From Paraburkholderia sp. IMGN_8 (GTDB lineage: Bacteria; Pseudomonadota; Gammaproteobacteria; Burkholderiales; Burkholderiaceae), in NCBI RefSeq assembly GCF_038050405.1, contig NZ_CP150901.1:4030001-4094000 (forward strand): a stretch of 64,000 nucleotides of DNA, written 5' to 3'. A model generated the notes under the pieces. The model made no database searches. It was not told where the DNA came from and was given only the letters and a program-made list of their open reading frames with translations. Position 1 is the stretch's first letter; each line of letters opens with the position of its first letter. A program made the translations under genes and the position numbers. Shown one piece after another: positions 15,386-33,557 of the stretch.

Positions 15386-16357
15386 ATGGCAAAAGAAGAC
15401 CAGACAGGAGCGGGACGCAAGCACGCGAGGCCACGCGGTGCGGCAGCGCCGGCTCCTCAAGACGACGCGGCGTTGTCCCAGGCGGACAGCGCTGATTCCA
15501 CCGATTCCGCCGATGAAGAGAGCACCGGCGGATCGACCTACCTCGTGCCGGGGCTGGAGCGCGGCCTGCGCATCCTCGCCGAATTCAGCGCGCGCGAGCC
15601 GGTGCTCGGCGCGCCCGAATTGTCGAAGCGCATCGGCATTCCGCGCACCACCACTTTCCGTTTATTGCAGACGCTCGAAGCACTCGGTTTTCTCGAGCGC
15701 GTCAATGGTGACCGCTATTTCCGCCTGAGCGTCGCGGTGCTGCGGCTCGGTTTCGAATACCTGAGTTCGCTCGAACTGACCGACGTCGGCACACCGATTC
15801 TCGAACGCTTGCGCGATGCGACCGGCCTGAGCACGCACCTGCTGATTCGCGATCAGCGTGATGTGGTGTTCGTCGCCAAGGCGCAGACCCATGAGCCGAT
15901 GTTCAGTTCGGTGAAAGTGCATGTCGGCACGCGTTTGCCGGCGCATGCCACCGTGCATGGGCAGGTGCTGATGGGCGATTTGAGCTTCGAGGAATTGCGT
16001 CAGTTGTATCCCGAGCCGCAACTCGAACGCTTCACCGAACGTACGCCGGCGACTGTCGAAGAGCTGTACGGAAGAGTGCGCGAAAGCGCGGCGCTCGGCT
16101 ACGCGTTGAGCGAAGCGTCGTTCGAGCGCGGGATTTCGGTGGTGAGCGCGCCGGTACGCGACCAAAGCGGAAGGATCGTCGCCGCGCTGACCGTCACCAT
16201 TCCACGTTCCGATATCGGCGAAGCGGAGGAACGCGAACCGCTCGTCATCGCGGTGTGCCAGGCAGCGCTCGAATTGTCCGAACGGCTCAGCTATCGCCCG
16301 CGGCCGGATGATCCGACCGCGGCCCAAGCTCGCCGCAAACCCGTCGCGGCGAACTGA
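15386..16357 (+). CDS. IclR-family transcriptional regulator 1
   Basis: A 323-aa IclR regulator with a long Ala/Asp-rich N-terminal extension (about 50 residues). Then follow VPGLERGLRIL, a winged helix-turn-helix (LSKRIGIPRTTTFRLLQTLEALGFLER split around residues 75-105) and an effector domain ending in the usual GISVVSAPVRDQSGRIVAALT. It is a close paralogue of the IclR protein at 21974-22834. It probably responds to a catabolic intermediate and controls the neighbouring porin and/or dioxygenase operon, whose promoters carry palindromes of IclR type. Start chosen at ATG 15386. Confidence 0.9.
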   Translation: MAKEDQTGAGRKHARPRGAAAPAPQDDAALSQADSADSTDSADEESTGGSTYLVPGLERGLRILAEFSAREPVLGAPELSKRIGIPRTTTFRLLQTLEALGFLERVNGDRYFRLSVAVLRLGFEYLSSLELTDVGTPILERLRDATGLSTHLLIRDQRDVVFVAKAQTHEPMFSSVKVHVGTRLPAHATVHGQVLMGDLSFEELRQLYPEPQLERFTERTPATVEELYGRVRESAALGYALSEASFERGISVVSAPVRDQSGRIVAALTVTIPRSDIGEAEEREPLVIAVCQAALELSERLSYRPRPDDPTAAQARRKPVAAN

Positions 16358-16436: not shown

Positions 16437-17510
16437 TCAGAACGAGTGGTGGATGCCAGTCAGGATAATCGTCTGGTTCCGGCCACTCGACACACCCGCC
16501 GTAAAGAACGCGGCGTCCGTGTTGGAGCCCGCGCGCTCATAGAGCGCATTCACGTATAACTGCGTCGACTTCGACAGCGCGTAGATATCGCCGATCTCGA
16601 ACTGCGTCCAGCGATGGCCGGCCATCGTTGTCGTCGCGGCGCCGCCGGCCACGCTGTTGAACGGCGTGAACTGGTAATTCGCGCCGACGTCGTAGCTCTG
16701 ATACGTGTCCGAATGTCCTGACGATTCCAGCTTCACACGCGTGTACAGACCATGCACCAGCAGTTTGCCGAACTGGTACGACGCGCCCGCGCCCATGTTC
16801 TCGACCTTGCTCGCCGTGTAGTTCGCTGCCGCCACGCCCTGGAAGTTGGTGATGCCCGTCGTCACGATCGACGGCGTGCGGTCATGCTCGTTCGCGTACG
16901 TCGCGCCGGCCTTGAACGGACCGTTCGCATAGCTAAGCGCAAAGCTCAGCGTCTTGCCGGTCGAGAAGTTGGTCGTGTTGCCGAGCCCCATCATCGCGCC
17001 GAACGTGAAACCGCCGAAACTCGCCGAGCGGAATTTCATCGAGTTGTCGAACGGCACCACGCCGGTGTCGGCGAGTTCGTCGATATTGCCTGGGTGGAAC
17101 GCGTACCAGCTTGCAGCCAGATAGGCCGTGCTCAACGGACCCAGTACATCGAAGCTGAACGGCGTCTGATGGCCGAACGTCAGCGTGCCGATCTGGTCCG
17201 AACTCAGTCCGACAAAAGCCTGGCGATTGAACAGCGTGCCGGCTTTAGCAAAGTTACCGGTGTTCGTATAAAAACCGTTCTCCAGCTGGAAGACCGTCTT
17301 CAAACCGCCGCCCAGATCCTCGACACCCTTCAGGCCCCAGCGGTCCGGCTGCATGTTGCCCTGTTCCTCGATCCACTTCGAATGGCCACCCGCATTGCTG
17401 ATGTACGCGACACCGGCATCCAGGCTGCCGTATAGCGTCACGCTGCTCTGCGCCCAGGCGCCTGTCGTTGCGCAGATTGCCGCTACGCCGGCTGCAATGA
17501 TGTGCTTCAC
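16437..17510 (-). CDS. Outer-membrane porin (Gram-negative trimeric porin family)
   Basis: A 357-aa beta-barrel porin of the beta-proteobacterial OmpC-like family. The signal peptide MKHIIAAGVAAICATTGAWA is followed by SSVTLYGSLDAGVAY, the family hallmark. The eyelet-loop region lies in the middle, and the C-terminal strand ends TGIHHSF with the terminal Phe required for barrel assembly. The start is GTG at 17510 with AGGAG eight bases upstream. It is transcribed away from the dioxygenase operon and shares its control region, so it probably admits the pathway's substrate. Confidence 0.92.
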   Translation of the reverse strand: MKHIIAAGVAAICATTGAWAQSSVTLYGSLDAGVAYISNAGGHSKWIEEQGNMQPDRWGLKGVEDLGGGLKTVFQLENGFYTNTGNFAKAGTLFNRQAFVGLSSDQIGTLTFGHQTPFSFDVLGPLSTAYLAASWYAFHPGNIDELADTGVVPFDNSMKFRSASFGGFTFGAMMGLGNTTNFSTGKTLSFALSYANGPFKAGATYANEHDRTPSIVTTGITNFQGVAAANYTASKVENMGAGASYQFGKLLVHGLYTRVKLESSGHSDTYQSYDVGANYQFTPFNSVAGGAATTTMAGHRWTQFEIGDIYALSKSTQLYVNALYERAGSNTDAAFFTAGVSSGRNQTIILTGIHHSF

Positions 17511-17951: not shown

Positions 17952-18266
17952 ATGACTGAACAATGGCGCTGCGCCGGCCATGCCGGCGACCTGTCCGAAG
18001 ATGCGCCGATCGAGTTCAAGCTCGACGGCACCGAAATCGGCATCTACAAGGTGGGCGATGCGCTGTACGCGCTGGAAAACGTCTGCCCCCATGCGTACGC
18101 GTTGTTGACGCAGGGCTTTGTCGACGGCGACACCGTCGAATGCCCGCTGCACGAAGCCGTGTTCCATATCCCGACCGGCAAATGCTTGAAAGAGCCCGGT
18201 GGCCGCGACCTGAAGATGTACTCGGTACGTCTCGCCGGCGAAGAAATCCAGATCAAGGTGGAATGA
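17952..18266 (+). CDS. Rieske [2Fe-2S] ferredoxin of a ring-hydroxylating oxygenase
   Basis: A 104-aa electron carrier. The cluster ligands are CPHAYA (Cys-X-His near residue 43) and CPLHEAVF (Cys-X2-His near residue 62), the Rieske pattern of BphA3-type ferredoxins. It should pass electrons from the FAD reductase encoded at the end of the operon to the Rieske oxygenase two genes downstream. The start MTEQWRC at 17952 follows AGGAG. The longer frame to 17817 would include the operator and is rejected. It is the first gene of the 14-gene operon. Confidence 0.92.
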   Translation: MTEQWRCAGHAGDLSEDAPIEFKLDGTEIGIYKVGDALYALENVCPHAYALLTQGFVDGDTVECPLHEAVFHIPTGKCLKEPGGRDLKMYSVRLAGEEIQIKVE

Positions 18267-18267
18267 C

Positions 18268-18579
18268 ATGCGAGAGGTAGCTGTGAACTTCAATCCCTTC
18301 CTGAAGCCGTGGCTCGCGCCGCAGCCGAACAACGTCGCCGGCAAGGGCGTGATCGAAAAGCCGGGCGCGACCGAGAACTTCATCTGGCAAACGCGCAAGG
18401 CCGAGCCGACCCAGTACGAAAACGACTTCGGCGATGCGCTCGAAAAAGTCTTCGAAGCCGGCGCAATGGAGTTGCAGGAAGTCGTCGACGGCTTGAATGG
18501 CATGGGTTTCCGCACGCCCGAAGGCAATGCGTGGGACGCCGAACGCCTCGCCGCCGAATTCCGCCTGCTCGCCGATTAG
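18268..18579 (+). CDS. Small recombinase-like helix-turn-helix protein
   Basis: A 103-aa protein beginning one base after the ferredoxin stop. Its C-terminal part (LQEVVDGLNGMGFRTPEGNAW followed by DAERLAAEFRLL) resembles the 'recombinase' helical DNA-binding segment of large serine recombinases (LN-x-G-x-x-TP-x-G-x-x-W). It has no catalytic resolvase domain and is far too short to recombine DNA. The N-terminal half (FNPFLKPWLAPQPNNVAGKG) is unlike any family I know. Its fixed place between ferredoxin and oxygenase genes suggests a regulatory or assembly role rather than mobility. Confidence 0.8.
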   Translation: MREVAVNFNPFLKPWLAPQPNNVAGKGVIEKPGATENFIWQTRKAEPTQYENDFGDALEKVFEAGAMELQEVVDGLNGMGFRTPEGNAWDAERLAAEFRLLAD

Positions 18580-18628
18580 GCGCGCTTTCCCGAACACGTT
18601 CCATCGCATCCGTATCCGGAGTCTCTTC

Positions 18629-19723
18629 ATGACGTCCCCTAGTACAACGACTCAAGGCACTGCCGACCCGATTCAGTCCTATCTGGACAAAGGCCTGCGC
18701 AACTACTGGTATCCGGTCTCGCCGAGCTGGCAAGTCGGCGACGCGCCGGTCGGCATCACGCGCCTCGGCGACCAGATCGTGCTGTGGCGCGACAAGGAAG
18801 GCAAAGTCCGCGCGCTCGAAGACCGCTGCCCGCACCGCGGCGCGCGTCTGTCGCTCGGCTGGAACCTCGGCGGCAGCGTCGCGTGCTGGTATCACGGCAT
18901 TGAAATCGACGGTGGCGGCACGGTCACCAAAGTGCCGGCTGTGTCGAACTGTCCGCTGGAAGGCCAGAAGTGCGTGAAGTCGTATCCGGTTGAAGAGCAC
19001 GCCGGCGCGATCTTCCTGTGGTTCGGCGACGACGCTCATAAAGAACCCACACCGCTCGTGCTGCCGGAAGAACTGGTCGGCGAGGCGTACGCGAACTTCC
19101 TGTGCATGTCGAACTGGAAGTGCAATTACCAGTACGCGATCGACAATGTGATGGACCCGATGCACGGTGCGTATCTGCACGCGACGTCGCACTCGATGGC
19201 CGAAGGCGACAAGCAGGCCGACATGCGCGTGCGCAAGACCGAAACGGGCTTGATGTTCGAAAAGGTCGGCCAGCGCGATGTGAACTTCGACTGGGTCGAA
19301 CTCGGCGAAACCGGCGCGCTGTGGATGCGCCTCGCGATTCCGTACAAGAAGAAGTTCGGCCCGGGCGGCAACTTCGGGATCATCGGCTTTGCTACGCCGG
19401 TCGACGAAAACAACTGCCAGGTTTATTTCTGGCGCACGCGCAAGGTGTCGGGCTGGCAGCGCGACGCATGGCGCTTCATGTACCGCAACCGCCTGGAAGG
19501 GTTGCACTGGGCGGTGCTCGAGCAAGACCGTTACGTGCTCGAAAGCATGGCGCCGAATGCACGTGAACACGAATTCCTCTATCAGCACGACGTCGGCATG
19601 ACGCGTGTGCGCCGCATGCTGCGTCAGCGCGCGCAACAGCACTTCGCTGAACTGGACGCACATCGCGCTCAGGCTGCAAGCGCAACACCGGCTATCGAAG
19701 CAGCAGGCCACAGCCATGCATAA
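18629..19723 (+). CDS. Rieske oxygenase, alpha (catalytic) subunit
   Basis: A 364-aa terminal oxygenase of a Rieske non-haem iron system. CPHRGARLSLG near residue 67 and CWYHG near residue 86 hold the [2Fe-2S] cluster. NVMDPMHGAYLH near residue 172 carries the bridging Asp and the two His that bind mononuclear iron, and a later Asp is available in VLEQDRY. No beta-subunit gene follows, so it is probably an alpha-only oxygenase (CarAa or phthalate-oxygenase-like). The substrate is unknown, presumably an aromatic or heterocyclic acid. The start is supported by GGAG upstream. Confidence 0.9.
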   Translation: MTSPSTTTQGTADPIQSYLDKGLRNYWYPVSPSWQVGDAPVGITRLGDQIVLWRDKEGKVRALEDRCPHRGARLSLGWNLGGSVACWYHGIEIDGGGTVTKVPAVSNCPLEGQKCVKSYPVEEHAGAIFLWFGDDAHKEPTPLVLPEELVGEAYANFLCMSNWKCNYQYAIDNVMDPMHGAYLHATSHSMAEGDKQADMRVRKTETGLMFEKVGQRDVNFDWVELGETGALWMRLAIPYKKKFGPGGNFGIIGFATPVDENNCQVYFWRTRKVSGWQRDAWRFMYRNRLEGLHWAVLEQDRYVLESMAPNAREHEFLYQHDVGMTRVRRMLRQRAQQHFAELDAHRAQAASATPAIEAAGHSHA

Positions 19724-20492
19724 CGAAGCGCCACCGGCATTGTCAGCACTCAAAGGCCGGCGCGTCCTCGTGACGGGCGGCGCGCGCGGTCTCGGCGCGG
19801 CGTTCGTCCGTGCGCTGGCGCAGGCCGGCGCGCAAGTGGTGTTCGGCGACGTGTTGCACGACGAAGGCCGGGCGTTGGCTGCATCGCTCGTTGAGCAAGG
19901 TCACGGGGTCACGTATCTGCCGCTCGATCTCGCGGACCCTGCCAGCATCAAGCAATTCGCCGATCAGGCTGCAGCGCAACTCGGCGGTCTGGACGCGCTG
20001 ATCAACAACGCGGCGATCACCCACTCCGGCGGCAAGTTTGCCGACGAGTTGTCGGTCGAGACGTGGGACGCCGTGATGAACGTCAACGTGCGCGGCACCT
20101 GGCTCATGAGCACTGCGGCGCTGCCGTACCTGCGCGACTCAGGCCGCGGCAGCATCGTCAACATCGCCTCGGATACGGCGATGTGGGGCGCGCCGAAGCT
20201 GCTCGCGTATGTCGCAAGCAAGGGCGCGGTGATCTCGATGACGCGTTCGTTGGCGCGCGAGTTCGGCGCGCACAACGTGACCGTCAACGCAATCGCGCCG
20301 GGCCTGACCGAAGTCGAGGCTACCGCGTACGTGCCCGCCGAGCGTCACCAGTATTACCTGCAAGGCCGCGCGCTGACGCGCGCACAAGTGCCCGACGACG
20401 TGACTGGGCCGGTGTTGTTCCTGTTGTCCGACGCCGCACGCTTCGTGACCGGCCAGTTGCTGCCGGTCAACGGCGGCTTCGTGATGAATTGA
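19716..20492 (+). CDS. SDR oxidoreductase 1
   Basis: A 258-aa classical short-chain dehydrogenase with intact motifs: VTGGARGLGAAF near residue 19 (cofactor loop), LINNAA near residue 96, Ser in NIASDTAMW, and YVASK near residue 164 (catalytic Tyr and Lys). In this setting it could be the cis-dihydrodiol dehydrogenase that re-aromatises the oxygenase product, or a later alcohol dehydrogenase. Its ATG overlaps the oxygenase stop by eight bases. The frame to 19605 is an artefact of the overlap. Confidence 0.88.
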   Translation: MHNEAPPALSALKGRRVLVTGGARGLGAAFVRALAQAGAQVVFGDVLHDEGRALAASLVEQGHGVTYLPLDLADPASIKQFADQAAAQLGGLDALINNAAITHSGGKFADELSVETWDAVMNVNVRGTWLMSTAALPYLRDSGRGSIVNIASDTAMWGAPKLLAYVASKGAVISMTRSLAREFGAHNVTVNAIAPGLTEVEATAYVPAERHQYYLQGRALTRAQVPDDVTGPVLFLLSDAARFVTGQLLPVNGGFVMN

Positions 20493-20518
20493 TCTTGTCG
20501 AATCGTAAGGAGAAAGAG

Positions 20519-21046
20519 ATGGCGGACGCCGAATTCGAACGCAAATCGTGGGACCAACCCGCGGACGCGAGCTTTGCCCAATGGCTGGACAGCCGCGTCG
20601 CGCGCCTGGAAACGCGTCGCTATGACTGGGACGCGCTCAAGTTCCAGGCCGACTACGACCCGAAATACCGCCGCGCGCAAATGCGCTATGTCGGCACGGG
20701 CGGCACGGGCGTCGCGAAGGACGTGAACACGGTGCCCGCAGGCGGCTTTACGTTCTCGACGATGGTGATCCCGGCCGGCAACATCGGGCCAAGCCATATT
20801 CATATGGATGTCGAAGAAATTTTCTTCGTGCTGCGCGGCAAGATGAAAGTGATCTGCGAGAAGGACGGTGAAACGTGGGAAGCCGTGCTCGGCGAACGCG
20901 ATCTGATCTCGGTGCCGCCGGGCGTGTATCGCACGGAAGTGAACATCGGTGAAGAAGACGCGTTGATGTGCGTCATGCTCGGTTCACCGAAGCCGATCAC
21001 GCCGACGTATCCGCCGGATTCGCCGCTGGCGAAGCTCAAGCGCTAA
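20519..21046 (+). CDS. Cupin-domain protein
   Basis: A 175-aa single-cupin protein. The first cupin motif is perfect (GPSHIHMDVEEIFFVLRGKM, residues about 88-107, two His and a Glu for metal). The second motif reads VPPGVYRTEVNIGE, with Arg where the metal-binding His usually stands. It could be a ring-cleaving or isomerising enzyme acting on the pathway intermediate, or a metal-binding accessory. The start at 20519 has TAAGGAG upstream. It sits between SDR1 and the hydrolase. Confidence 0.8.
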   Translation: MADAEFERKSWDQPADASFAQWLDSRVARLETRRYDWDALKFQADYDPKYRRAQMRYVGTGGTGVAKDVNTVPAGGFTFSTMVIPAGNIGPSHIHMDVEEIFFVLRGKMKVICEKDGETWEAVLGERDLISVPPGVYRTEVNIGEEDALMCVMLGSPKPITPTYPPDSPLAKLKR

Positions 21047-21082
21047 GCGCCCGCACTACCGCTCACTTTGAGAAGAGAACCC

Positions 21083-21973
21083 ATGTCCACAGTCCCGTCC
21101 GTCAACGCCGATCAGAAAGCCACGCTCGAAGCACGTCTCACGCGCTTCCCGGCGCAGCAGATCTGGCTGGCATCGCAACGCGCCGTGAGCTATCGCGAAG
21201 TGGATAGCGCCGACAGCGATGCGTTGCCGCTGGTGTTGTTGCACGGTATCGGTTCGGGCGCGGCTTCGTGGGTGCAGCAATTCGAAGTGCTCGGCGCAAC
21301 GCGCCGTGTGCTCGCGTGGGATGCGCCGGGTTATGGCGCATCCACGCCGGTTGCGGCCGAATCACCCGCCGCAAGCGATTACGCAACCGTGCTGAAGGAA
21401 TGGCTCGACGCGCTCGGCATCGAACGCTGCGTGCTGCTCGGCCATTCGCTCGGCGCGCTCATCGCCGGCGCGTTTGCTGCCGTGCATCCGCACCGCGTGG
21501 CCGGCTTGCTGCTGTTGTCGCCCGCTGGCGGTTATGGCGCGGCATCGGCGGACGTGCGCGAAACGAAACGTGACCAGCGTCTTGCCATGCTGAAAGAGCT
21601 CGGCCCGCTTGGCCTCGCCGAAAAACGCAGCACCAATATGTTGTCCGCTCACGCAAGCGACGAAGCCCGCGCATGGGTGCGCTGGAACATGTCGCGCGTG
21701 ATCCCGCACGGCTACGCACAAGCGACGCATCTGCTCGCCGATGCCGATCTCGCTGCCGACCTCGCGCGTTACAGAGGTCGCATCAGCGTGGCGGTTGGCG
21801 TCGACGACATCATTACGACCCCCGATGCCTGCGAGCGAATCGCACTGGCAGCGGGCACCCAATTGCAGGTCGTGCCACGCGCGGGGCACGCCGGTTATAT
21901 CGAAGCACCCGCCGCGTACACCGCGATCATCGACACGTTCTGCCGCACTAGCGACGGACAACGGAGCCAATGA
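21083..21973 (+). CDS. Alpha/beta-fold hydrolase
   Basis: A 296-aa serine-type hydrolase. The oxyanion region is LHGIGSGAASW, the nucleophile elbow is GHSLG (residues 119-123), the acid Asp is in VGVDDIITTP near residue 239, and the catalytic His is in RAGHAGYIEAP near residue 269. It resembles meta-cleavage product hydrolases and related C-C or ester hydrolases, which fits a role after ring opening. It ends immediately before the second iclR gene. Confidence 0.85.
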   Translation: MSTVPSVNADQKATLEARLTRFPAQQIWLASQRAVSYREVDSADSDALPLVLLHGIGSGAASWVQQFEVLGATRRVLAWDAPGYGASTPVAAESPAASDYATVLKEWLDALGIERCVLLGHSLGALIAGAFAAVHPHRVAGLLLLSPAGGYGAASADVRETKRDQRLAMLKELGPLGLAEKRSTNMLSAHASDEARAWVRWNMSRVIPHGYAQATHLLADADLAADLARYRGRISVAVGVDDIITTPDACERIALAAGTQLQVVPRAGHAGYIEAPAAYTAIIDTFCRTSDGQRSQ

Positions 21974-22834
21974 ATGACGCCCGACACGATTAGCGCCGAG
22001 CGCGACGCGGACGACGACCGCAACGACACCAGTTACCGGGTGCCGGGTCTCGAACGCGGCCTGAAGATTCTCACGGAGTTCTCGCCACGCGAGCCGGTTC
22101 TCGGCGCACCCGAATTGTCCAGGCGCCTGAAGATTCCCCGCACGACGGTATTCCGTCTGCTGCAAACGCTCGAATCGCTCGGCTTTCTCGAACGCGCCGA
22201 CAAGGACCGCAACTATCGCCTCGGCGTCGCGGTGCTGCGGCTCGGTTTCGAATATCTGAGCTCGCTCGAATTGACCGACCTCGGCTTGCCGATCATCGAA
22301 GCACTGCGCGACGACACTGGCTTGACGAGCCACATCGTGATTCGCGATGGGCGCGACGTCGTGTTCGTCGCCAAGGCACAAAGCCACGCGCCGATTTTCA
22401 GTTCGGTGAAAGTGAACGTCGGCACGCGCCTGCCTGCCTACGCGACGACCCACGGCCAGGTGCTGATGGGCGACATGACGCTCGACGAGTTGAAGAAGCT
22501 CTATCCCGAGCCGGAACTCGAACGCTTCACGAAGCAAACGCCCGCCACGATCGACGACCTGTACGAACGGATTCGCGACGACGCACGGCGCGGCTTCGCG
22601 ATCAGCGAGTCGTCGTTCGAACGCGGCATTTCGGTGGTCAGCGCGCCGGTGCGTAACGACACGGGCCGCATCGTCGCCGTGATCACGACGACGATTCCGC
22701 GCCACGAGATCGACGCGTCGCTGCTCGACAGCGGTCTGATCGACAAGGTCCGTCGAGCCGCCGACGAACTCTCGCAACGGCTCAACTATCGGCCGTCCTC
22801 CGGCACGAAATACATGAAGGCATTGGGGCTCTGA
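21974..22834 (+). CDS. IclR-family transcriptional regulator 2
   Basis: A 286-aa IclR regulator whose first base follows the hydrolase stop directly. It closely parallels the protein at 15386-16357 from VPGLERGL through the C-terminus, including nearly identical stretches such as VAVLRLGFEYLSSLELTD and SFERGISVVSAPVR. The N-terminal extension is much shorter. Being inside the operon, it is likely autoregulated through the palindrome at 17909. The paralogues may sense different intermediates or form mixed dimers. Confidence 0.9.
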   Translation: MTPDTISAERDADDDRNDTSYRVPGLERGLKILTEFSPREPVLGAPELSRRLKIPRTTVFRLLQTLESLGFLERADKDRNYRLGVAVLRLGFEYLSSLELTDLGLPIIEALRDDTGLTSHIVIRDGRDVVFVAKAQSHAPIFSSVKVNVGTRLPAYATTHGQVLMGDMTLDELKKLYPEPELERFTKQTPATIDDLYERIRDDARRGFAISESSFERGISVVSAPVRNDTGRIVAVITTTIPRHEIDASLLDSGLIDKVRRAADELSQRLNYRPSSGTKYMKALGL

Positions 22835-23631
22835 TGATTCAAATCGACTTGACCGGGCAGGTAGCGGTGGTGACGGGCGGCTCGTCCGGCATCGGCTTCT
22901 CGACTGCCGAGCTGTTTCTGCGGGCCGGCGCCTCGGTCGCGATTTGCGGCCGCGATACCGAACGTCTTGCGCAAGCGGAAGCCGCGCTGAAGGCGCAGTT
23001 CCCCGATGCGCAACTGTTGGCGCATGCCTGCGACGTGCTTGACGCCCGCGAAGTCGCAGCATTCGCGCAAGCCGTGCAAGCGCGCTTCGGCCGCACCGAC
23101 ATGCTGGTGAACAACGCCGGCCAGGGCCGCGTGTCCACTTTCGCCGACACCACCGACGACGCCTGGCGCGAAGAACTCGACCTCAAGTATTTCAGCGTGA
23201 TCCGCCCGACCCGCGCGTTCCTGCCGATGCTGCGCGACGCAACCAACCCAGCGGTGGTCTGCGTGAACTCGCTGCTCGCGCTGCAACCGGAGCCGCACAT
23301 GGTCGCGACCTCGTCGGCGCGGGCCGGCGTGCTCAGTCTGATCAAGTCGCTCGCGGTCGAACTCGCGCCGCAACGCATTCGTGTGAATTCGATTCTGATC
23401 GGCATCGTCGAATCGGGGCAGTGGCGCCGCCGTTTCGCCACGCAAGCGCAGCCGGGCCAGAGCTGGGAAGACTGGACCGCTGACCTTTCGCGCAAGAAAA
23501 ACATTCCGCTAGGCCGCTTCGGTCGCCCCGAAGAAGCCGCTCAAGCGCTCTTTTACCTGGCTACGACGCTGTCGTCCTATACGACGGGCAGTCACATCGA
23601 TGTTTCTGGAGGCGTTGCACGACATGTCTAA
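22834..23631 (+). CDS. SDR-family protein 2 with altered active site
   Basis: A 265-aa SDR fold. The cofactor motif VTGGSSGIGFS (near residue 12) and MLVNNAG (near residue 91) are intact, as is the active-site Ser region VNSLLALQ. The expected YxxxK is missing: the equivalent stretch reads MVATSSARAGVLSL, so Tyr appears replaced by Ser/Thr and Lys by Arg. It may be a non-redox or atypical enzyme, or bind cofactor without classical catalysis. Start and stop of adjacent genes overlap (TGATG at 22832; eight bases with the ThDP gene). Confidence 0.82.
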   Translation: MIQIDLTGQVAVVTGGSSGIGFSTAELFLRAGASVAICGRDTERLAQAEAALKAQFPDAQLLAHACDVLDAREVAAFAQAVQARFGRTDMLVNNAGQGRVSTFADTTDDAWREELDLKYFSVIRPTRAFLPMLRDATNPAVVCVNSLLALQPEPHMVATSSARAGVLSLIKSLAVELAPQRIRVNSILIGIVESGQWRRRFATQAQPGQSWEDWTADLSRKKNIPLGRFGRPEEAAQALFYLATTLSSYTTGSHIDVSGGVARHV

Positions 23632-25282
23632 CAAAACCACCGTTGGCGAGCTGATCGCCGCCTTTCTCGAACAATGCGGCGTTCAAACCGCATTCGGCGT
23701 GATCTCGATCCACAACATGCCGATCCTCGACGCGATCCATAACCGCGGCAAGATCCGCTATGTCGGCGCGCGCGGCGAAGCCGGCGCGGTGAACATGGCC
23801 GACGGCCTCGCCCGCGTTTCCGGTGGTCTCGGCGTGGCGTTCACCAGCACCGGCACCGCAGCGGGCAACGCAGCGGGCGCGATGGTCGAAGCACTGACCG
23901 CAGGCACCGCACTGCTGCACATCACCGGCCAGATCGAAACCGAGTACCTCGATCAGGACCTCGCGTATATCCACGAAGCACCGGACCAACTGTCGATGCT
24001 GTCGTCGATTTCGAAGGCCGCGTTCCGCGTGCGTTCCGTCGAAACCGCGTTGCCGACGATCCGCGAAGCGGTGCGCGTCGCGCAAACCGCGCCGAGCGGT
24101 CCGGTCAGCGTCGAAATTCCGATCGACATTCAAGCCGCCGAAATCGAATGGCCCGCCGATCTGGCCGCCCCGCACGTGACCACGCTTACGCATTGCAGCA
24201 AGCGTGTCGCGCAACTCGCCGATCAACTGGCGAAGACGAAGCGTCCGCTGCTGTGGCTGGGCGGCGGCGCGCGTCATGCACGTGCTGCGGTCGAACGTCT
24301 GGTGGCATTGGGCTTTGGCGTGGTGACCAGCGTGCAGGGCCGTGGTGTGCTGCCGGAAGATCATCCGGCGACGCTCGGCGCGTTCAACGTGCATGCCGCA
24401 GTCGAAAGCTTCTACAAGACGTGCGACGCGCTGGTGGTGGTCGGCTCGCGTCTGCGTGGCAATGAAACGCTGAAGTACAAGCTGGCGCTGCCGCAACCGC
24501 TGTATCGCGTCGACGCCGACGCGCTTGCCGACAACCGCGGCTATCGCAACGAAATGTTCATTCATGGCGATGCGTCGGCGGTGCTCGAAGAACTGGCGAT
24601 GCTGCTCGAAGGCCGCCTGAAGGTCGACCCATCGTTCGCACAGGATCTGGCCGCCGCGCGAGAGAGTGCCGTCGCGGATGTGGGCAAGGGCCTCGGCCCG
24701 TACAAGCGCCTCGTCGACGCGTTGCAACAGGCGGTGGGCCGCGACTACAACTGGGTGCGCGACGTCACGATCTCGAACAGCACGTGGGGCAACCGCATGC
24801 TGAAGATTTTCTCGCCGCGTGCGGGTGTCCATGCACTCGGCGGCGGCATCGGCCAGGGCATGCAGATGGGCATCGGCGCAGCGCTTGCCGGCAGCGCTGC
24901 GAAGACCGTGTGCCTCGTCGGCGACGGCGGCCTGATGGTCAACGTCGGCGAACTCGCCACCGCCGTGCAGGAAAACGCCAACGTCATGATCGTGTTGATG
25001 AACGACCAGTGCTACGGCGTGATCCGCAACATTCAGGACGCGCAATACGGCGGCCGCCGCTGCTACGTCGATCTGCATCAGCCGGATTTCGCGCAGTTCT
25101 GCGAGAGCCTGAAGCTGACGCACTACCGCATCAAATCGCTCGACCAGGCCGAAGAGATCATCCGCGAAGGCATGGCGAAGACGGGGCCGGTGCTGGTCGA
25201 AGTGGACATGTTGTCGGTCGGCTCGTTCGCCACCGCGTTCGCGGGTCCGCCGGTCAAGGAACAGGAGCCGGAACATGCGTGA
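23624..25282 (+). CDS. Thiamine-diphosphate-dependent enzyme (decarboxylase/acetolactate synthase-like)
   Basis: A 552-aa three-domain ThDP enzyme. The cofactor-activating Glu is in [14 protein letters not shown] near residue 51. The ThDP-binding motif runs from GDGGLMVN (near residue 432) to NDQCYG (near residue 460), the right spacing. The family includes benzoylformate, phenylpyruvate and sulfopyruvate decarboxylases and carboligases; substrate cannot be read from motifs. With the dehydrogenase and ALDH that follow, a route amino acid to 2-oxo acid to aldehyde to acid is conceivable. The start [10 protein letters not shown] overlaps SDR2 by eight bases. Confidence 0.85.
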
Positions 25283-26105
25283 TGCCGATTACGCCGGATG
25301 TCACGCGCCCGTCGACGTCGCGATGATCGGCTTCGGCGCGATTGGCCAGGCGGTGTACCGCTCGGTCGCCGCCGATCCTACTGTGCGCGTGTCGCACGTG
25401 ATCGTGCCGGAACGCCATGCGGTATCGGTGCGCGAAGTGGTGGGCGCATCGGTGGACGTGGTGTCGTCGGTGTCGGCGTTGAGCAGCAAACCGCACTTCG
25501 CGCTCGAATGCGCGGGACACAGCGCGCTGGTGGATCACGTGGTGCCGTTGCTGAAAGCGGGCACGGATTGCGCGGTGGCTTCGATCGGCGCGCTGTCCGA
25601 CATGATGTTGCTCGACGCGCTGTCCGCTGCAGCCGATGAAGGCGACGCGACGTTGACGCTGCTGTCCGGCGCAATTGGTGGCGTGGATGCACTGTCGGCG
25701 GCGAAGCTCGGCGGTCTCGACGAAGTGCTGTACACGGGCCGCAAGCCGCCTACGGGTTGGCTCGGCACGCCGGCGGAACAGGTCTGCAACCTGAACACGC
25801 TGACCGAAGAGACAGTGATTTTCGAAGGCAGTGCGCGTGAGGCGGCGCGTCTATATCCGAAGAACGCCAACGTTGCGGCGACGATCGCTTTGGCCGGCCT
25901 TGGTCTGGATCACACCACCGTGCGCCTGATCGCCGACCCGAACGTGACGCGCAACGTGCATCGGATCGTGGCGCGCGGCGCATTTGGCGAGATGTCGCTG
26001 GAGATGTGCGGCAAGCCGCTGCCGGACAACCCGAAGACGTCCGCACTGACCGCGTACAGCGCGATCCGTGCGCTACGCAATCGCGCGGCACGCTGCGTGA
26101 TTTAA
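25275..26105 (+). CDS. Aspartate dehydrogenase-like (NadX family) oxidoreductase
   Basis: A 276-aa NAD(P)-binding protein of the NadX/L-aspartate dehydrogenase family. The Rossmann motif is [15 protein letters not shown] near residue 15, followed by [16 protein letters not shown] and the C-terminal-domain stretch [14 protein letters not shown] containing the family's conserved region. NadX oxidises L-aspartate to iminoaspartate; in degradation operons relatives may act on other amino acids or amines. It overlaps the ThDP gene by eight bases and is followed by ALDH. Confidence 0.85.
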
Positions 26106-26149
26106 GTCCCCAAGTTGAAGCTAGTTTGAAGCACACCGGAACGACCGAC

Positions 26150-27640
26150 ATGACTCACTTCGATACCAGCCTCGTGCCCACCGGCGATATTTTTATCGGC
26201 GGCGAATGGCGGCAAGGGCGTGGCAACCCGTACAAAAGCCTGTATCCGGCGGATCAGTCGGTCAACATGGAAATCTCGACGGCCAACGCCGACGACGCCT
26301 GCGAAGCAGTGGAAGCCGCGGACATCGCATGGCGCAAAGCCGATTGGTCCGGCCTCAAGCCGCATCAACGCGCGCTGATTCTGTACCGCATCGCCGATCT
26401 GATCATGGCGCGTCACGAAGCGCTTGCGCAGTTGCAGCGTCGCGACAACGGCAAGCCGATCGGCGAAACGCGCGTACTGGTGGCGAGCGCAGCGAACACG
26501 TTCCGCTACTTCGCCGCGTGCCTCGAAACGCTCGATGAAGACGTGACGCCTTCGCGCGGCGACTATCTGACGATGAGCATTCACGAGCCGATTGGCGTGA
26601 TCGCGGCGATCACGCCGTGGAACTCGCCGATTGCCTCGGATGCGCAGAAGCTCGCCCCCGCATTGGCAGCAGGCAATGCCGTGGTGCTGAAGCCCGCTGA
26701 AGTGACGCCTCTGGTTTCTCTCGCCTTGGCGCGCATCTGCGAAGAAGCCGGCGTGCCGAAAGGTGTACTGAGCGTGCTGCCGGGCAAGGGTTCGGTGATC
26801 GGCGACGTGCTGGTGCGTCATCCGTTGGTCAAGAAAGTGTCGTTCACGGGCGGCACCGAAGTGGGCCGCGGCATCGCGCGCATTGCTGCGGACAAGCTGA
26901 TGCCGGTGTCGCTGGAACTCGGCGGCAAATCGCCGACCATCGTGTTCGACGACGCCGATCTCGATCACGCGGTGAACGGCGTGCTGTACGGTATTTTCAG
27001 TTCGTCGGGTGAAGCGTGCATCGCCGGTTCGCGCCTGTTCGTGCAGCGCTCGATTTACGACGCGTTCATGAAGCGTCTCGCGGAAGGCGCACGCAAGCTG
27101 CGCGTCGGCGATCCGTCACATGCGGAAACGCAGATGGGTCCGTTGATCACCGCGGCGCATCGCGAAACCGTCGAACGTTACGTCGCATTGGGTCTGGAAG
27201 AAGGCGGCCGCCTGCTGTGCGGCGGCGAGCGTCCGGTCGGCGACGGCCGCGAACAAGGCACCTATTTCCAGCCGACGATCCTCGAAGGCCTCACGAACGA
27301 CGCCCGCATCTGCCAGGAAGAAATCTTCGGCCCGGTGCTGGTCGCCATGCCGTTCGACGATGAAGCCTCGCTGCTGAAAGAAGCGAACAACAGCGTGTTC
27401 GGCCTCGCCGCCGGCATCTGGACGCGCGATTACAAACGCGCCTACCGGATCGCCCGCGCGCTCGAAGCCGGCACCGTCTGGATCAACACCTACAAGCTGT
27501 TCTCGATCTCGACGCCGTTCAGCGGCTGGAAAGAGAGCGGCATGGGACGCGAGAAGGGCCGTCTCGGCATCCGCGAATACATGCAGCAGAAGAGCCTCTA
27601 CTGGGGCTTGAACGACGCGCCGCTGGCGTGGGCGAACTAA
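26150..27640 (+). CDS. NAD(P)-dependent aldehyde dehydrogenase
   Basis: A 496-aa aldehyde dehydrogenase. It shows ITPWNSP, KPAEVTPL, FTGGTEVGRG, the general-base Glu in ELGGKSP (near residue 255) and the nucleophile Cys in GEACIAGSR (near residue 290). It oxidises an aldehyde to the acid, probably the aldehyde made by the ThDP enzyme or by hydrolytic cleavage of the ring-opened product. The start MTHFDTSLVP at 26150 is preferred; the open frame to 26006 overlaps the dehydrogenase gene. Confidence 0.92.
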   Translation: MTHFDTSLVPTGDIFIGGEWRQGRGNPYKSLYPADQSVNMEISTANADDACEAVEAADIAWRKADWSGLKPHQRALILYRIADLIMARHEALAQLQRRDNGKPIGETRVLVASAANTFRYFAACLETLDEDVTPSRGDYLTMSIHEPIGVIAAITPWNSPIASDAQKLAPALAAGNAVVLKPAEVTPLVSLALARICEEAGVPKGVLSVLPGKGSVIGDVLVRHPLVKKVSFTGGTEVGRGIARIAADKLMPVSLELGGKSPTIVFDDADLDHAVNGVLYGIFSSSGEACIAGSRLFVQRSIYDAFMKRLAEGARKLRVGDPSHAETQMGPLITAAHRETVERYVALGLEEGGRLLCGGERPVGDGREQGTYFQPTILEGLTNDARICQEEIFGPVLVAMPFDDEASLLKEANNSVFGLAAGIWTRDYKRAYRIARALEAGTVWINTYKLFSISTPFSGWKESGMGREKGRLGIREYMQQKSLYWGLNDAPLAWAN

Positions 27641-27654
27641 GCAAGAGGCACGTT

Positions 27655-28620
27655 ATGACGATTCTCGGCATTGAACAGATTATTTACGGTGTGACGGATC
27701 TCGCTACCTGCCGTCGGTTTTTCGCGGACTGGGGCCTCAAAGAGACCGAGCACGACGACAAGCACGCGCGCTTCGAAACGCTGAACGGCTGCACGATTCT
27801 CGCCGTCGATGCGAACGATCCTTCGCTGCCGCCCGCCTTCGAAGAAGGTCCGACGCTGCGTGAAGTGACGTGGGGCGTCGCGACGAAAGCCGAACTCGAC
27901 GAACTGCGTGGCCGTTTCGCCGGCCAGCCGGGCCACTTCGAAACCGACGACGCGGTCGGCTGTATCGATCCGAACGGCATGGCGATCCGCGTCGAAGTGA
28001 CTCGTAAGCGTGCGCTCGATATTCACGGCTCGCCATCGAACGTGTGGGGCCAAACGCTGCGCGTCGATCAACCGTCGCCGATTTACGAGCGCGCCGAACC
28101 GGTCGAAGTGGGCCATGTCGTGTTCTTCACGAACCGTCTCGCGGAACAGGAAAAGTTCTATCAGGAACTGCTCGGCTTCGAGATGTCGGATCGCTATCCG
28201 GGCCGTGGCGCATTCATGCGTTGCGCGCCGCACGGCGGCCACCACGACATCTTCCTGCTGGCACTCCCTGGTGGCAAACGCGGCCTGAATCACGTTGCAT
28301 TCACAGTGCGGGATATCCACGAAGTGTTCGGCGGCGGCATGCACATCAGCCGTTGCGGCTGGGATACGCAACTTGGCCCGGGGCGTCATCCGGTGTCGTC
28401 GGCGTATTTCTGGTACTTCCAGAATCCGGCGGGCGGCCTGATCGAGTACTACGCCGACGAAGACCAATTGACGCCCGAATGGCAGCCGCGCGATTTCGAA
28501 CCGGGTCCGACCGTGTTCGCGGAATGGGCGATCGACGGCGGCATCGACGGCAATACGCGTCGCCAGAAGAACGCGAAGGCGCCGGAAGGCAAATTCATGA
28601 CGGAGCGAAAAAATGACTGA
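27655..28620 (+). CDS. VOC-family extradiol-type dioxygenase
   Basis: A 321-aa protein with two VOC modules, the layout of type I extradiol dioxygenases. The second module supplies the expected iron ligands: His in VGHVVFFT (near residue 154), His in LNHVAFTV (near residue 217) and Glu in LIEYYAD (near residue 270). The first module is degenerate, as usual for the family. It is predicted to cleave a catecholic ring next to the hydroxyls. The ATG at 27655 follows AAGAGG, 14 bases after ALDH. Confidence 0.85.
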   Translation: MTILGIEQIIYGVTDLATCRRFFADWGLKETEHDDKHARFETLNGCTILAVDANDPSLPPAFEEGPTLREVTWGVATKAELDELRGRFAGQPGHFETDDAVGCIDPNGMAIRVEVTRKRALDIHGSPSNVWGQTLRVDQPSPIYERAEPVEVGHVVFFTNRLAEQEKFYQELLGFEMSDRYPGRGAFMRCAPHGGHHDIFLLALPGGKRGLNHVAFTVRDIHEVFGGGMHISRCGWDTQLGPGRHPVSSAYFWYFQNPAGGLIEYYADEDQLTPEWQPRDFEPGPTVFAEWAIDGGIDGNTRRQKNAKAPEGKFMTERKND

Positions 28621-29878
28621 CGCTGCTGCTGCAAAGGCGCAAGCCGCGCACGCCGGACTCGAAGCGCCGCGCACGATCGTTGTGATCGGCGGCGGCCAGG
28701 CGGCGGGTTGGGTCGTGAAGACATTGCGCAAGGAAGGCTTCGACGGCCGCCTCGTGATGATCGCCGATGAGATTCATCTGCCGTACGAGCGCCCGCCGTT
28801 GTCGAAGGCCGTGCTGGCCGGGGAAGCGGATATCGAAACCGTACGTCTGGTGACGCCCGACGATTTCGAGGCGCTGAACGTCGAAACGTGGCAACCGGAT
28901 TGCGCGACGTCGATCGATCGCGAGCAACGCATCGTGCGCACGCAATCGGGCCGCGACGTGCAATACGACCGCCTGGTGATCGCCACCGGCGGCGCGGCGC
29001 GCCGTCTGCCGGATGCACTGGTGAAGACCTCGCACATCGCCTATCTGCGCACGCTCGACGAAGCCGTCGCACTCGGCGAACGGCTGCGCAAAAGCAAGCG
29101 TGTGCTCGTGGTCGGCGGCGGCTGGATCGGTCTCGAAGTCGCGGCGACCGCGCGCAAGCTCGGCGTGCAAGCGACGGTCGTGGAAGGCGCGCGGCGTCTG
29201 TGCGCCCGTTCGTTGCCGCCGATGGTGTCGGACTTCCTGCTGGATCTGCATCGCGCGAACGGTGTGGATGTGCGCTTGAACGCATCGCTGGTATCGCTCG
29301 CAGATCGCCCGAACGACGCCGACCGCATCCGCGCGACCTTTGCTGACGGCTCGACACTCGACGCCGACTTCGCCGTCGCCGGGATCGGCCTCACGCCGCA
29401 CACCGTACTGGCTGAAGCCGCCGGCCTCAAGGTGCAGGACGGCATCGTCGTCGACCATTTCGGCGCGACCGAAGACCCGCGCATCTTCGCCTGTGGCGAC
29501 GTCGCGAATCATCCGAGCGCGTGGCTCAGGCGCCGCGTACGGCTCGAATCCTGGGCCAACGCGCAGAACCAGGCGATCGGCGCGGCAAAAGCCTTGCTCG
29601 GCACCTTCGAACCGTACGCGGATATTCCGTGGTTCTGGTCCGATCAATACGACGTCAATCTGCAAATCCTCGGCGACATTCCGGCCGATGCGCAGCTCGC
29701 CGTACGCGGCGATCTGGCGGACAAACGCGCCACGCTCTTCTATCTGGAAGACAACGCGATTCGCGGCGTCATCGCCATCAACAATCCACGCGAACTGAAA
29801 CTGTCGCGCAAGTGGATGAACCAAGGCCGGACCATCGACCTTGCCACACTGACCGACGCCTCAACGGCGCTTGCCTAA
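28613..29878 (+). CDS. FAD-dependent ferredoxin reductase
   Basis: A 421-aa pyridine-nucleotide-disulfide-fold reductase of the ring-hydroxylating oxygenase type. The FAD motif is VVIGGGQAAGWV near residue 25, the NAD motif is VLVVGGGWIGLEVA near residue 165, the second FAD motif is IFACGDVANHP near residue 290, and a reductase C-terminal domain follows. It transfers electrons from NADH to the Rieske ferredoxin encoded at the head of the operon, completing a three-component oxygenase. It overlaps the VOC gene by eight bases. Confidence 0.9.
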   Translation: MTDAAAAKAQAAHAGLEAPRTIVVIGGGQAAGWVVKTLRKEGFDGRLVMIADEIHLPYERPPLSKAVLAGEADIETVRLVTPDDFEALNVETWQPDCATSIDREQRIVRTQSGRDVQYDRLVIATGGAARRLPDALVKTSHIAYLRTLDEAVALGERLRKSKRVLVVGGGWIGLEVAATARKLGVQATVVEGARRLCARSLPPMVSDFLLDLHRANGVDVRLNASLVSLADRPNDADRIRATFADGSTLDADFAVAGIGLTPHTVLAEAAGLKVQDGIVVDHFGATEDPRIFACGDVANHPSAWLRRRVRLESWANAQNQAIGAAKALLGTFEPYADIPWFWSDQYDVNLQILGDIPADAQLAVRGDLADKRATLFYLEDNAIRGVIAINNPRELKLSRKWMNQGRTIDLATLTDASTALA

Positions 29879-29903
29879 CCACACCTACGGACGGCACCAC
29901 GGC

Positions 29904-31307
29904 ATGAGAACCATCGACAACACCATCGGGGACCGCAGCAGCGCCGGTGTCTCCGGCCCTGTGACACGGGGCTCGATCATCGCGCGTCTCGAGCGGTTGC
30001 CGAAGAATTCGATGCAGGTGCGCGCGCGCATCCTGATCGGTCTCGCGACGTTCTTCGACGGCTTCGACGTGATTGCGATCGCGGCCACACTGCCGATCCT
30101 GATCGCGAAGTGGCATCTGACGCCATGGGAAATCGGCTTCCTGATCGGCTCCGGCTCGGTCGGCCAGTTGATCGGCGCGTTCGTGTTCCCGTGGTACGCG
30201 GAACGCAAGGGCCGTGTCAGGGCGATTGCGTTGAGCTCGGGGATCATCGGCATGACCAGCATCGCGTGCGGTTTTGCGCCGACTTTCGCCGCGTTTGTCG
30301 TGTTGCGTGTGATTCAGGGCTTGGGGCTCGGCGGTGAATTGCCGGTGGCCGCGACGTACATCAACGAGATCAGCCGGGCGCATGGCCGTGGCCGTTTCGT
30401 GCTGCTGTATGAAATCGTTTTTCCGGTCGGCCTGCTCGCGTCGAACGCGTTGGGCGCGTGGATCGTGCCGCGCTTCGGCTGGCAAGCGATGTACTTCATC
30501 GGCGGCATGCCGTTGATCCTGTTCTTCGTGCTTCGCAAGCTGGTGCCGGAGTCGCCGCGCTGGCTCGCCGAACGCGAACGGATGACCGACGCCGATGCAG
30601 CCGTGCATGCGTTCGAGCGTGCCGCGAAAGGTCCGCTACCGCCGGTGGCTCATTCTGCCGAATTCGAAGCGATGGCCAATCGTCATCCGAAACGCCGCAT
30701 GGGCGACCTGTTCGGCCCGGCGTATCTGAAGCGCACGCTGGCCGTGGCGATGTTGTGGATCACCTGCGGCTTCATTCAATACGGTCTGTCGACCTGGCTG
30801 CCGACGATCTATCGCACGGTTTATCACGCGCCACTGCAACTGGCGCTGAATCTGGCGGTGGCCGCTTCGGTGCTCGGCGTGGTGGGGTCGCTGACCTGCG
30901 CGTTGCTGGTCGATAAGGTGGGACGCAAGCCGATCATCAACCTGTCGTTCGTGTTGTGCGCGCTGTCGTTGTTGCTGGCAGGCGTGTTCCACGCTTCATC
31001 GGTGTATGTGGTCGCGACGTGCTGCGCATTCTCGCTCGGCTTCCTCGCTTGCGGTTTCATCACGGCATACGTGTACACGCCGGAGTTGTATCCGACCAGC
31101 ATCCGCGCGATGGGCTGCGGTGTCGGTGGCGCGTGGCTCAAGGTGGCGGCAATTTTCGCACCGGCTATCGTGTCGAAGACGATGATCGGCGGCAATCTGC
31201 AGGTCGCGTTCTATATCCTCGCGGCGGTGCCGTTTCTGGCAGCGATCACGGTGCACTTGCTCGGCATCGAGACCAAGGGCAAAGTGCTGGAACAACTCGA
31301 GGCTTGA
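29904..31307 (+). CDS. MFS transporter, aromatic acid:H+ symporter-like
   Basis: A 467-aa inner-membrane transporter with about 12 hydrophobic segments. The first is followed by FFDGFDVIAIAATLPIL, matching the DGFD/DGYD motif of aromatic acid:proton symporters, and the cytoplasmic loop motif is YAERKGRVRAI. The central loop contains PESPRWLAERERM. As last gene of the operon it probably imports the pathway substrate, complementing the porin. The start is taken as ATG 29904; a TTG at 29871 inside the reductase end is the alternative. Confidence 0.88.
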   Translation: MRTIDNTIGDRSSAGVSGPVTRGSIIARLERLPKNSMQVRARILIGLATFFDGFDVIAIAATLPILIAKWHLTPWEIGFLIGSGSVGQLIGAFVFPWYAERKGRVRAIALSSGIIGMTSIACGFAPTFAAFVVLRVIQGLGLGGELPVAATYINEISRAHGRGRFVLLYEIVFPVGLLASNALGAWIVPRFGWQAMYFIGGMPLILFFVLRKLVPESPRWLAERERMTDADAAVHAFERAAKGPLPPVAHSAEFEAMANRHPKRRMGDLFGPAYLKRTLAVAMLWITCGFIQYGLSTWLPTIYRTVYHAPLQLALNLAVAASVLGVVGSLTCALLVDKVGRKPIINLSFVLCALSLLLAGVFHASSVYVVATCCAFSLGFLACGFITAYVYTPELYPTSIRAMGCGVGGAWLKVAAIFAPAIVSKTMIGGNLQVAFYILAAVPFLAAITVHLLGIETKGKVLEQLEA

Positions 31308-33525: not shown

Positions 33526-33557
33526 AGCGGCGTGTTCGTTGTTGTGACGAACCGCCG

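Follow-up and report, generated by a model that had tools for sequence, protein, structure and literature searches.

We wanted to know which compound is degraded by the products of fourteen consecutive genes in Paraburkholderia sp. IMGN_8. The genes lie on the plus strand, at 17952-31307 of a stretch of 64,000 nucleotides (contig NZ_CP150901.1, positions 4,030,001 to 4,094,000) that we call the window; the host genome has 9.1 Mb. The original prediction described a catabolic operon in which a three-component Rieske oxygenase system is combined with a thiamin diphosphate (ThDP)-dependent enzyme and an aspartate-dehydrogenase-like (NadX) protein. All fourteen genes are present as described, with overlaps or short gaps between them (-8 to +49 bases, starts as chosen). 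The cluster encodes a genuine catabolic pathway, conserved in many bacteria, whose middle and lower part depart from the standard; in the literature that we searched it is uncharacterised. We tentatively propose kynurenate (4-hydroxyquinoline-2-carboxylate), or a closely related quinoline-2-carboxylate, as its most likely substrate. More broadly, the substrate is perhaps, and rather probably, a benzo-fused N-heteroaromatic acid.

Conservation of the fourteen-gene block

We scanned named genomes for relatives of the NadX-like protein. There were 457 places encoding such a relative; the best 80 loci were kept, and 70 of these were at least 16 kb long. The complete set of fourteen genes was found in 51 of the best 80, every one among the 70 longer loci, and these included Paraburkholderia xenovorans LB400 (L125; NC_007952.1, within 3156481-3177248), Paraburkholderia graminis, Caballeronia and Burkholderia. 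Since all 51 share one gene order, the block is no chance juxtaposition. The original prediction had called for this comparison, and the conserved order gives no sign of the separate transcription units that would have spoken against it.

Twenty loci were taken from congeneric and other genomes, and in 17 of them the complete set follows the porin in unchanged order. The exceptions were L048 (genes in pieces), L045 (another oxygenase set) and L047 (a 6-kb contig). In L048, from a 5.2-Mb genome of the same genus (G008), the fourteen genes are recognisable, and those for the oxygenase, the second short-chain dehydrogenase/reductase (SDR2), the NadX-like protein, the aldehyde dehydrogenase (ALDH) and the reductase are fragmentary. 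This copy of the operon, in a smaller genome, appears to be decaying. The NadX family model was over its cut-off in 22 of 35 genomes of a genus sample (own genome counted), and the ThDP protein of the window is 98% identical to that of P. aspalathi and relatives. Genes of the relatives were called with a gene finder that relies on codon usage and was trained on the genes of the window; for L160, which is AT-rich, and L108 we used deposited annotation or BLAST. The operon is a stable, widely conserved catabolic unit.

From spacing and conservation we infer one transcript for the fourteen genes. A scan of the region for sigma-70 promoters gave 0 sites where 2.6 were expected. A terminator-like site 60 bp past the last gene is at chance level (9 such sites in the region, 12.9 expected).

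Wider distribution and core set

Klebsiella (L159), Acinetobacter (L160) and Novosphingobium (L161) have most of these genes in a different arrangement. Some nine enzymes make up a core that recurs, likewise rearranged, in these genera and in further proteobacterial genomes. The gene order of the window is carried by a Caballeronia plasmid (L162), while Pandoraea (L117) has a rearranged set with a different oxygenase. A search with the oxygenase matched 15 of 399 Burkholderiales genomes at E <= 1e-90 (own genome counted). At E <= 1e-80 there were matches in 15 of 398 genomes phylum-wide, 7 of these 15 being already in the order sample. Thin samples at class level yielded only the own genome, for the oxygenase among 252 genomes and for the ThDP family, over its cut-off, among 274.

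To define the core we used 27 locus groups, one per genus or arrangement. They were chosen from loci found via NadX, the oxygenase or the vicinal oxygen chelate (VOC) protein, which inflates the counts for these three. SDR1, the cupin and the ThDP enzyme were present in all 27 groups; the oxygenase, the hydrolase and the NadX-like protein in 26 each, VOC in 25, IclR in 24, SDR2 and ALDH in 22 each, HTH_62 in 20, the ferredoxin reductase in 11, the ferredoxin in 10 and the major facilitator superfamily (MFS) importer in 6. G891 does have a VOC, at 32% identity. For the NadX-like gene we also made a less biased count: it stands beside the cluster in 15 of 21 fetched genomes that were found by the oxygenase alone. 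In G044, G358, G036 and G706 the contig ends too early to judge its presence beside the cluster, and G044 carries it on another contig, together with VOC and ALDH. Based on these counts, the constant core is the oxygenase, SDR1, VOC, hydrolase, cupin, ThDP enzyme and mostly the NadX-like protein, to which SDR2 and ALDH are usually added. What varies in the operon family is the importer, the regulator and the electron carriers.

The oxygenase of G011 (L045), absent from the count above, is located just outside the fetched piece. A cluster without oxygenase was ruled out there, as the adjoining stretch has an oxygenase of a second type (56%), RidA and a DmmA-like reductase. This second type (about 53-56% identical) is accompanied by a RidA-family protein and a small unknown protein in L193, L117 and L227, and by the DmmA-like reductase in L117 and L227. 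Both oxygenase types lie side by side in G044 (L193).

HTH_62, a genomic partner of the oxygenase

The second gene of the operon (18268-18579) was not listed by family in the original prediction. It encodes a small protein of 103 residues with an HTH_62 domain (PF20552, 87 bits). HTH_62 was over the Pfam cut-off in 15 of the 399 Burkholderiales genomes, and these are exactly the 15 that have the oxygenase; two further genomes gave weak matches below the cut-off. There were 16 HTH_62 genes over the cut-off. Fifteen lie within 90 bp upstream of the oxygenase gene; the sixteenth, in G485, is 1.7 kb upstream and separated from it by ABC-transporter genes. Conversely, among 17 oxygenase matches only the second match of G485 had no such gene beside it. 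In the plasmid collection, all 21 HTH_62 records fall among the 23 records with a VOC protein at least 46% identical.

HTH_62 is thus a steady genomic partner of this Rieske oxygenase family. A link to recombination or mobile genes was not found in the 399 genomes, where all 16 genes are upstream of the oxygenase. Judging by its genomic setting, HTH_62 is probably a small oxygenase partner and not a recombinase, and its name 'recombinase-like' seems misleading in view of the strict pairing with one family of Rieske oxygenases.

At 42778-44004 (plus strand), 11 kb downstream of the operon, the window has a second VanA-like Rieske oxygenase gene, whose closest NCBIfam model is 4beta-methylsterol monooxygenase (178 of 600 bits). 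No HTH_62 gene lies near it, and the genome has one HTH_62 gene in total.

Products of the operon and their conserved residues

Gene families were assigned by profile searches with Pfam and NCBIfam. Residues were compared in alignments of matches with more than 60% coverage (21-27 sequences for the main enzymes), and their roles were taken from family knowledge.

The electron chain of the oxygenase is complete, as had been claimed. It consists of a Rieske-type ferredoxin (17952-18266; PF00355, CxH...CxxH, with C45, H47, C64 and H67 invariant in 9 aligned sequences), the oxygenase (18629-19723; PF00355 and PF19112) and a ferredoxin reductase (28613-29878; Pyr_redox_2 and Reductase_C). In the oxygenase, the Rieske ligands C67, H69, C86 and H89, the bridging D176 and the iron ligands H179, H184 and D300 were invariant in 26 sequences. 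With Rieske and VanA_C domains, intact ligands and its own ferredoxin and reductase, this is a VanA-type Rieske system; we propose that the oxygenase is a kynurenate 7,8-dioxygenase. SDR1 (19716-20492; PF13561), a candidate cis-dihydrodiol dehydrogenase, lies directly 3' of the oxygenase in many arrangements. The VOC protein (27655-28620; PF00903; HpaD model 75.9 bits, below cut-off) has the 2-His-1-Glu site of type I extradiol dioxygenases (H154, H213 and E264), invariant in 21 sequences together with second-sphere H245 and Y254.

The other predicted parts were also found with Pfam and NCBIfam. The alpha/beta hydrolase (21083-21973; PF00561), which may be a C-C or lactam hydrolase, keeps S122, D242 and H269 in 26 sequences. 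The cupin (20519-21046; PF07883), possibly a metal enzyme of the lower half, keeps H93, H95, E99 and E100 in 27. Its match in the PDB was weak (quercetinase QueD, 24 bits), and its predicted structure had a mean pLDDT of 69.9, on which no claim rests. The ALDH (26150-27640; PF00171, 573 bits) was below the cut-offs of the NCBIfam betaine-aldehyde, HpaE and StyD types.

Curated NCBIfam equivalog cut-offs were passed by three proteins: SDR2 (22834-23631; PRK07062.1, 475.7 bits, cut-off 266), the ThDP enzyme (23624-25282; PRK07064.1, 966.8 bits, cut-off 495) and the NadX-like protein (25275-26105; aspartate dehydrogenase PRK13303.1-1, 534 bits, cut-off 479, and two related models). These names indicate a family rather than a reaction. 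The model PRK07064.1 itself names no reaction. The next models for the ThDP enzyme were all below cut-off: one with no named function (295.6 bits), 5-guanidino-2-oxopentanoate decarboxylase (the AruI type, PRK07524.1, 283 of 500 bits) and biosynthetic acetolactate synthase (245.5 bits). E52 and GDG433-435...N460 were invariant in 27 sequences of the ThDP enzyme, and H229 in 26 of the NadX-like protein. With these residues in place, the operon enzymes look functional.

SDR2 is a close relative of the solved structure 3lf1 (Q9HYA2, 366 bits), which we take to be a P. aeruginosa protein. The P. aeruginosa genes PA3504-PA3511 presumably have the same gene order; their locus tags led to no paper, and we did not use them as evidence.

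Uptake and regulation are represented by the MFS importer of the aromatic acid:H+ symporter (AAHS) type (29904-31307; TIGR00895, 223 bits, below cut-off) and by an IclR regulator of the PcaR/PobR group (21974-22834; PF01614; TIGR02431 below cut-off). Upstream, on the minus strand, lies a porin gene (16437-17510; PF13609), divergent and more than 60% identical in 51 of 51 full loci. Beyond it is a second IclR gene (15386-16357, plus strand), more than 65% identical in 49 of 51.

On the 3' side of the operon, at 32008-34676, we observed a MocR-type regulator (PdxR model over cut-off) and, on the opposite strand, an FAD oxidase. The closest model of the latter is N-methyl-L-tryptophan oxidase (176 of 257 bits), and the gene is retained there in several relatives.

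A proposed route for kynurenate

Families of a lower pathway (hydratase, aldolase, or decarboxylase/tautomerase) were not found among the fourteen proteins with Pfam or NCBIfam, in line with the predicted lack of a hydratase/aldolase pair. An oxygenase, an SDR and a VOC enzyme are the usual set to make and cleave a catechol. The ThDP enzyme and the ALDH fit what would follow: when extradiol cleavage opens the carbocycle of a fused two-ring system, the remaining side chain ends in an alpha-keto acid.

For kynurenate we propose the following order. The oxygenase with ferredoxin and reductase would form the 7,8-cis-dihydrodiol (step 1), and SDR1 would re-aromatise it to 7,8-dihydroxykynurenate (step 2). 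VOC would cut the 8-8a bond, giving a pyridine that bears a CH=CH-CO-COOH chain (step 3). The ThDP enzyme would decarboxylate this alpha-keto acid to an enal (step 4), and ALDH would oxidise the enal to the acid, with SDR2 possibly catalysing an accompanying reduction or oxidation (step 5). ThDP enzyme and ALDH would thus stand in for hydratase and aldolase. In step 6 the NadX-like dehydrogenase, the alpha/beta hydrolase and the cupin may open the ring of the dihydroxypicolinate. The NadX-like enzyme is placed here because C2 of dihydroxypicolinate carries both a carboxylate and the nitrogen. In the imino form this looks like iminosuccinate, on which enzymes of the NadX family naturally act; the NadX-like enzyme would act on such a cyclic or ring-opened alpha-imino acid. 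Porin and MFS importer would bring in the acid, and IclR would regulate the genes.

Work of the Hayaishi group on Pseudomonas in the 1960s reportedly established a kynurenate route with the intermediates of steps 1-5 (EC 1.14.99.2, 1.3.1.18 and 1.13.11.10), and is said to have named the enzymes, not the genes. At the level of enzyme classes, the operon matches steps 1-5 of this route, all encoded together. Two of the matching classes, a ThDP decarboxylase and an ALDH for its product, are left unexplained by the classical meta pathway. Two papers (PMC5610271 and PMC11354673) cite descriptions from 1961-1963 of how Pseudomonas breaks down kynurenate (Horibata 1961; Taniuchi and Hayaishi 1963).

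The original prediction took the gene content to suggest an amino-acid or keto-acid side chain on the substrate, or a non-standard lower pathway. The catabolic operon and its non-standard lower pathway are supported. The side chain is not needed, because cleavage of a fused ring creates the alpha-keto acid for the ThDP enzyme, and opening of an N-heterocycle with an alpha-carboxylate creates the imino acid for the NadX-like protein. We regard as quite improbable a substrate of the 2,3-dihydroxyphenylalanine type, from which meta-cleavage and C-C hydrolysis would free aspartate for oxidation by the NadX-like enzyme. The chemistry would indeed yield aspartate, such a cleavage has reportedly a precedent in chloridazon degraders, and the hydrolase has matches in the PDB at 47-57 bits that include MhpC, BphD and HsaD, as well as RutD. 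However, the co-product hydroxypentadienoate requires the hydratase and aldolase that the operon lacks, the ThDP enzyme and ALDH would be idle, and aspartate requires no dedicated dehydrogenase.

Genes that accompany the cluster

Some lineages have accessory genes next to the cluster. Pandoraea L117 encodes a RidA-family protein (PF01042 over cut-off), and similarity points to one in G011 (L227) and in G044 (L193) as well. In G480 (L189), a three-subunit molybdenum hydroxylase and CoxG directly follow the oxygenase, and the large subunit of the hydroxylase (87%) was likewise found in L187 and L188 of the same genus. Immediately upstream of its cluster, L188 also encodes a hydrolase with an isochorismatase fold and an HpcH/HpaI protein. 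NMT1-type binding proteins were seen in L117 and L080. The lineage-specific RidA and molybdenum hydroxylase genes favour an N-heteroaromatic acid. Pyridine routes typically include molybdenum hydroxylase, RidA and isochorismatase-fold genes, whose presence in some relatives could also be explained by a monocyclic pyridine acid of the picolinate or nicotinate family. Such a substrate would, however, have no call for a dihydrodiol dehydrogenase, a catechol-type extradiol enzyme, a decarboxylase and an ALDH, and the known pyridine routes rely on other ring-cleaving enzymes. We give it little chance.

Several other candidates were not counted as support. The molybdenum hydroxylase flanking L195 looks like CO dehydrogenase. 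Hydroxylase-like open reading frames (ORFs) near L084, L086, L093 and L111 were left aside, as the tested one (L195, on the same contig as L093) is of this CO-dehydrogenase-like kind. Two supposed molybdenum hydroxylase ORFs in L222 were a pentapeptide protein and a topoisomerase.

G438 has two separate gene runs, one with the oxygenase, SDR1, SDR2, VOC, ThDP enzyme and ALDH, the other with the aspartate dehydrogenase, hydrolase and cupin. This split fits the proposed upper and lower halves of the pathway.

Evidence against kynurenate

A number of observations weigh against kynurenate. The steps given to the cupin and SDR2 are not well supported. The arrangements in Novosphingobium L161 and in the alphaproteobacterial family f254 do not split into the same halves as in G438. 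Among solved structures, the closest to the ThDP enzyme is acetolactate synthase (176 bits) and the closest to the oxygenase is dicamba monooxygenase (90 bits, against 54 bits for 2-oxoquinoline 8-monooxygenase); neither is a pointer to quinolines. The molybdenum hydroxylase of L189 has its closest solved relative in 4-hydroxybenzoyl-CoA reductase (455 bits) and not in quinoline oxidoreductase (308 bits), and the one flanking L195 gives no help, as described above. We also looked for kynureninase in 24 cluster-bearing genomes. It was over the cut-off in 15, weak in 2 and absent in 7. Only in G891 is it near the cluster (kynA-kynU, at 9.4 kb, with mostly unrelated genes between); in the other 14 genomes it is on another contig.

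A Tritonibacter plasmid (L163, 12001-24146) carries a more distant aspartate dehydrogenase gene (48%) about 7 kb from genes for kynureninase, ALDH and 3-hydroxyanthranilate 3,4-dioxygenase.

The NadX-like gene, to which the route gives a role in ring opening, is beside the cluster in 15 and not in all of the 21 genomes found by the oxygenase, and G442 and G661 have none between the ThDP enzyme and ALDH. These two genomes would suit a nitrogen-free aromatic or fused-ring acid, for example one derived from lignin, coumarin or naphthoate. It would be degraded by a biphenyl-like upper route consisting of oxygenase, SDR1, VOC and hydrolase, with ThDP enzyme and ALDH replacing hydratase and aldolase, and the NadX-like protein would only recycle oxaloacetate and aspartate. 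The AAHS-type importer, the PcaR/PobR-type IclR and the porin suggest an aromatic acid generally, and VOC is closest to the homoprotocatechuate dioxygenase model. Such an acid nevertheless gives no account of a NadX-like gene as common as this one, nor of RidA and the molybdenum-hydroxylase accessories, and we consider it unlikely.

Published expression data raise sulfur as a further point that kynurenate does not predict. We inferred orthology in A. baumannii from product names and from the gene order in L160; ABUW_2942, 2943 and 2946 correspond to ALDH, aspartate dehydrogenase and cupin and share that order. According to the accessible part of one study, these three genes rise with sulfur-acquisition genes, namely those for sulfonate and sulfate uptake, after addition of vitamin B12 (PMC12892962). 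In another, A1S_0954, 0956, 0957 and 0958 were 2.2- to 3.7-fold up with mucin, and its main text, as available, does not contain the words 'sulfur' or 'sulfonate' (PMC5757984). The joint change of the orthologues supports co-expression. Equally unpredicted is L219, from f254, where an arylsulfatase-type gene (PF00884; arylsulfatase model 230 of 481 bits) and FAD monooxygenase genes lie between the pathway halves and a TRAP importer also joins the core; L218 and L221 have ORFs of similar length at the same place. The arylsulfatase-type gene, FAD monooxygenases and TRAP importer of L219 hint at a variant for a sulfated substrate in f254. That the operon generally serves a sulfated or sulfonated aromatic acid, supplying sulfur as well as carbon, seems very doubtful to us, as the versions inspected in Klebsiella, Acinetobacter and Novosphingobium have no annotated gene for a sulfatase or a desulfonating enzyme, and Pfam and NCBIfam gave none in the operon of the window.

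Kynurenate remains our tentative choice. We put forward with still more reserve that this operon family is the missing kynurenate gene set across proteobacteria, in which the three old activities would be joined by a ThDP enzyme replacing hydratase and aldolase, a NadX-family imine reductase or dehydrogenase for the opening of the pyridine ring, and HTH_62 as dedicated oxygenase partner. Kynurenate, which animals and plants make from tryptophan, is immune- and neuro-active. If the proposal is true, the operon marks soil, plant and host-associated bacteria that are able to consume it, and provides genes for enzymes sixty years old. Even with another acid as substrate, the operon family offers a clear target in its core of some nine enzymes, which is preserved from alpha- to gammaproteobacteria and has no assigned function that we could find.

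An identical cluster already assigned to a known pathway, which would have overturned the original prediction, was not found in the open-access literature, nor were a function of the cluster or genes for kynurenate breakdown; subscription journals were largely uncovered.

Comparison with known systems

Kynurenate degradation by Pseudomonas, as reported in the 1960s, shares with the operon a dioxygenase, a dihydrodiol dehydrogenase, an extradiol dioxygenase, keto-acid decarboxylation and aldehyde oxidation, all in the carbocyclic half and in the same succession as we propose. That work reportedly named enzymes and no genes.

In the AruH-AruI-KauB arginine transaminase pathway a ThDP enzyme decarboxylates a 2-oxo acid and an ALDH then oxidises the aldehyde. 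The succession is the same as we propose here; unlike our operon, this pathway has no ring chemistry, and the ThDP enzyme of the window is under the cut-off for its decarboxylase, as given above.

By family model only, the NadX-like protein belongs with the L-aspartate dehydrogenases of P. aeruginosa, R. eutropha, Delftia and K. pneumoniae (PMC5554190). In the accessible text of that paper these are studied as amination enzymes, the authors' attempts failed to reach the high activity described for the R. eutropha enzyme, and the main text nowhere uses the term 'gene cluster' (PMC5554190).

Lumichrome and riboflavin catabolism in Nocardioides (lum genes) also unites thiamin-dependent decarboxylation, a Rieske dioxygenase and an extradiol catechol dioxygenase in one N-heteroaromatic pathway (PMC12746152). 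It differs, in the parts of the paper available, by a two-protein thiamin enzyme (LumK/LumL), an alpha/beta Rieske oxygenase, a P450 and amidases, and the word 'aspartate' does not occur in its main text (PMC12746152).

With the classical meta-cleavage pathways (bph, hca/mhp) the operon shares the Rieske system, the SDR, the extradiol VOC enzyme and the alpha/beta hydrolase. Unlike them, it is without hydratase, aldolase and acylating dehydrogenase, and has a ThDP enzyme, a NadX-like protein and a cupin.

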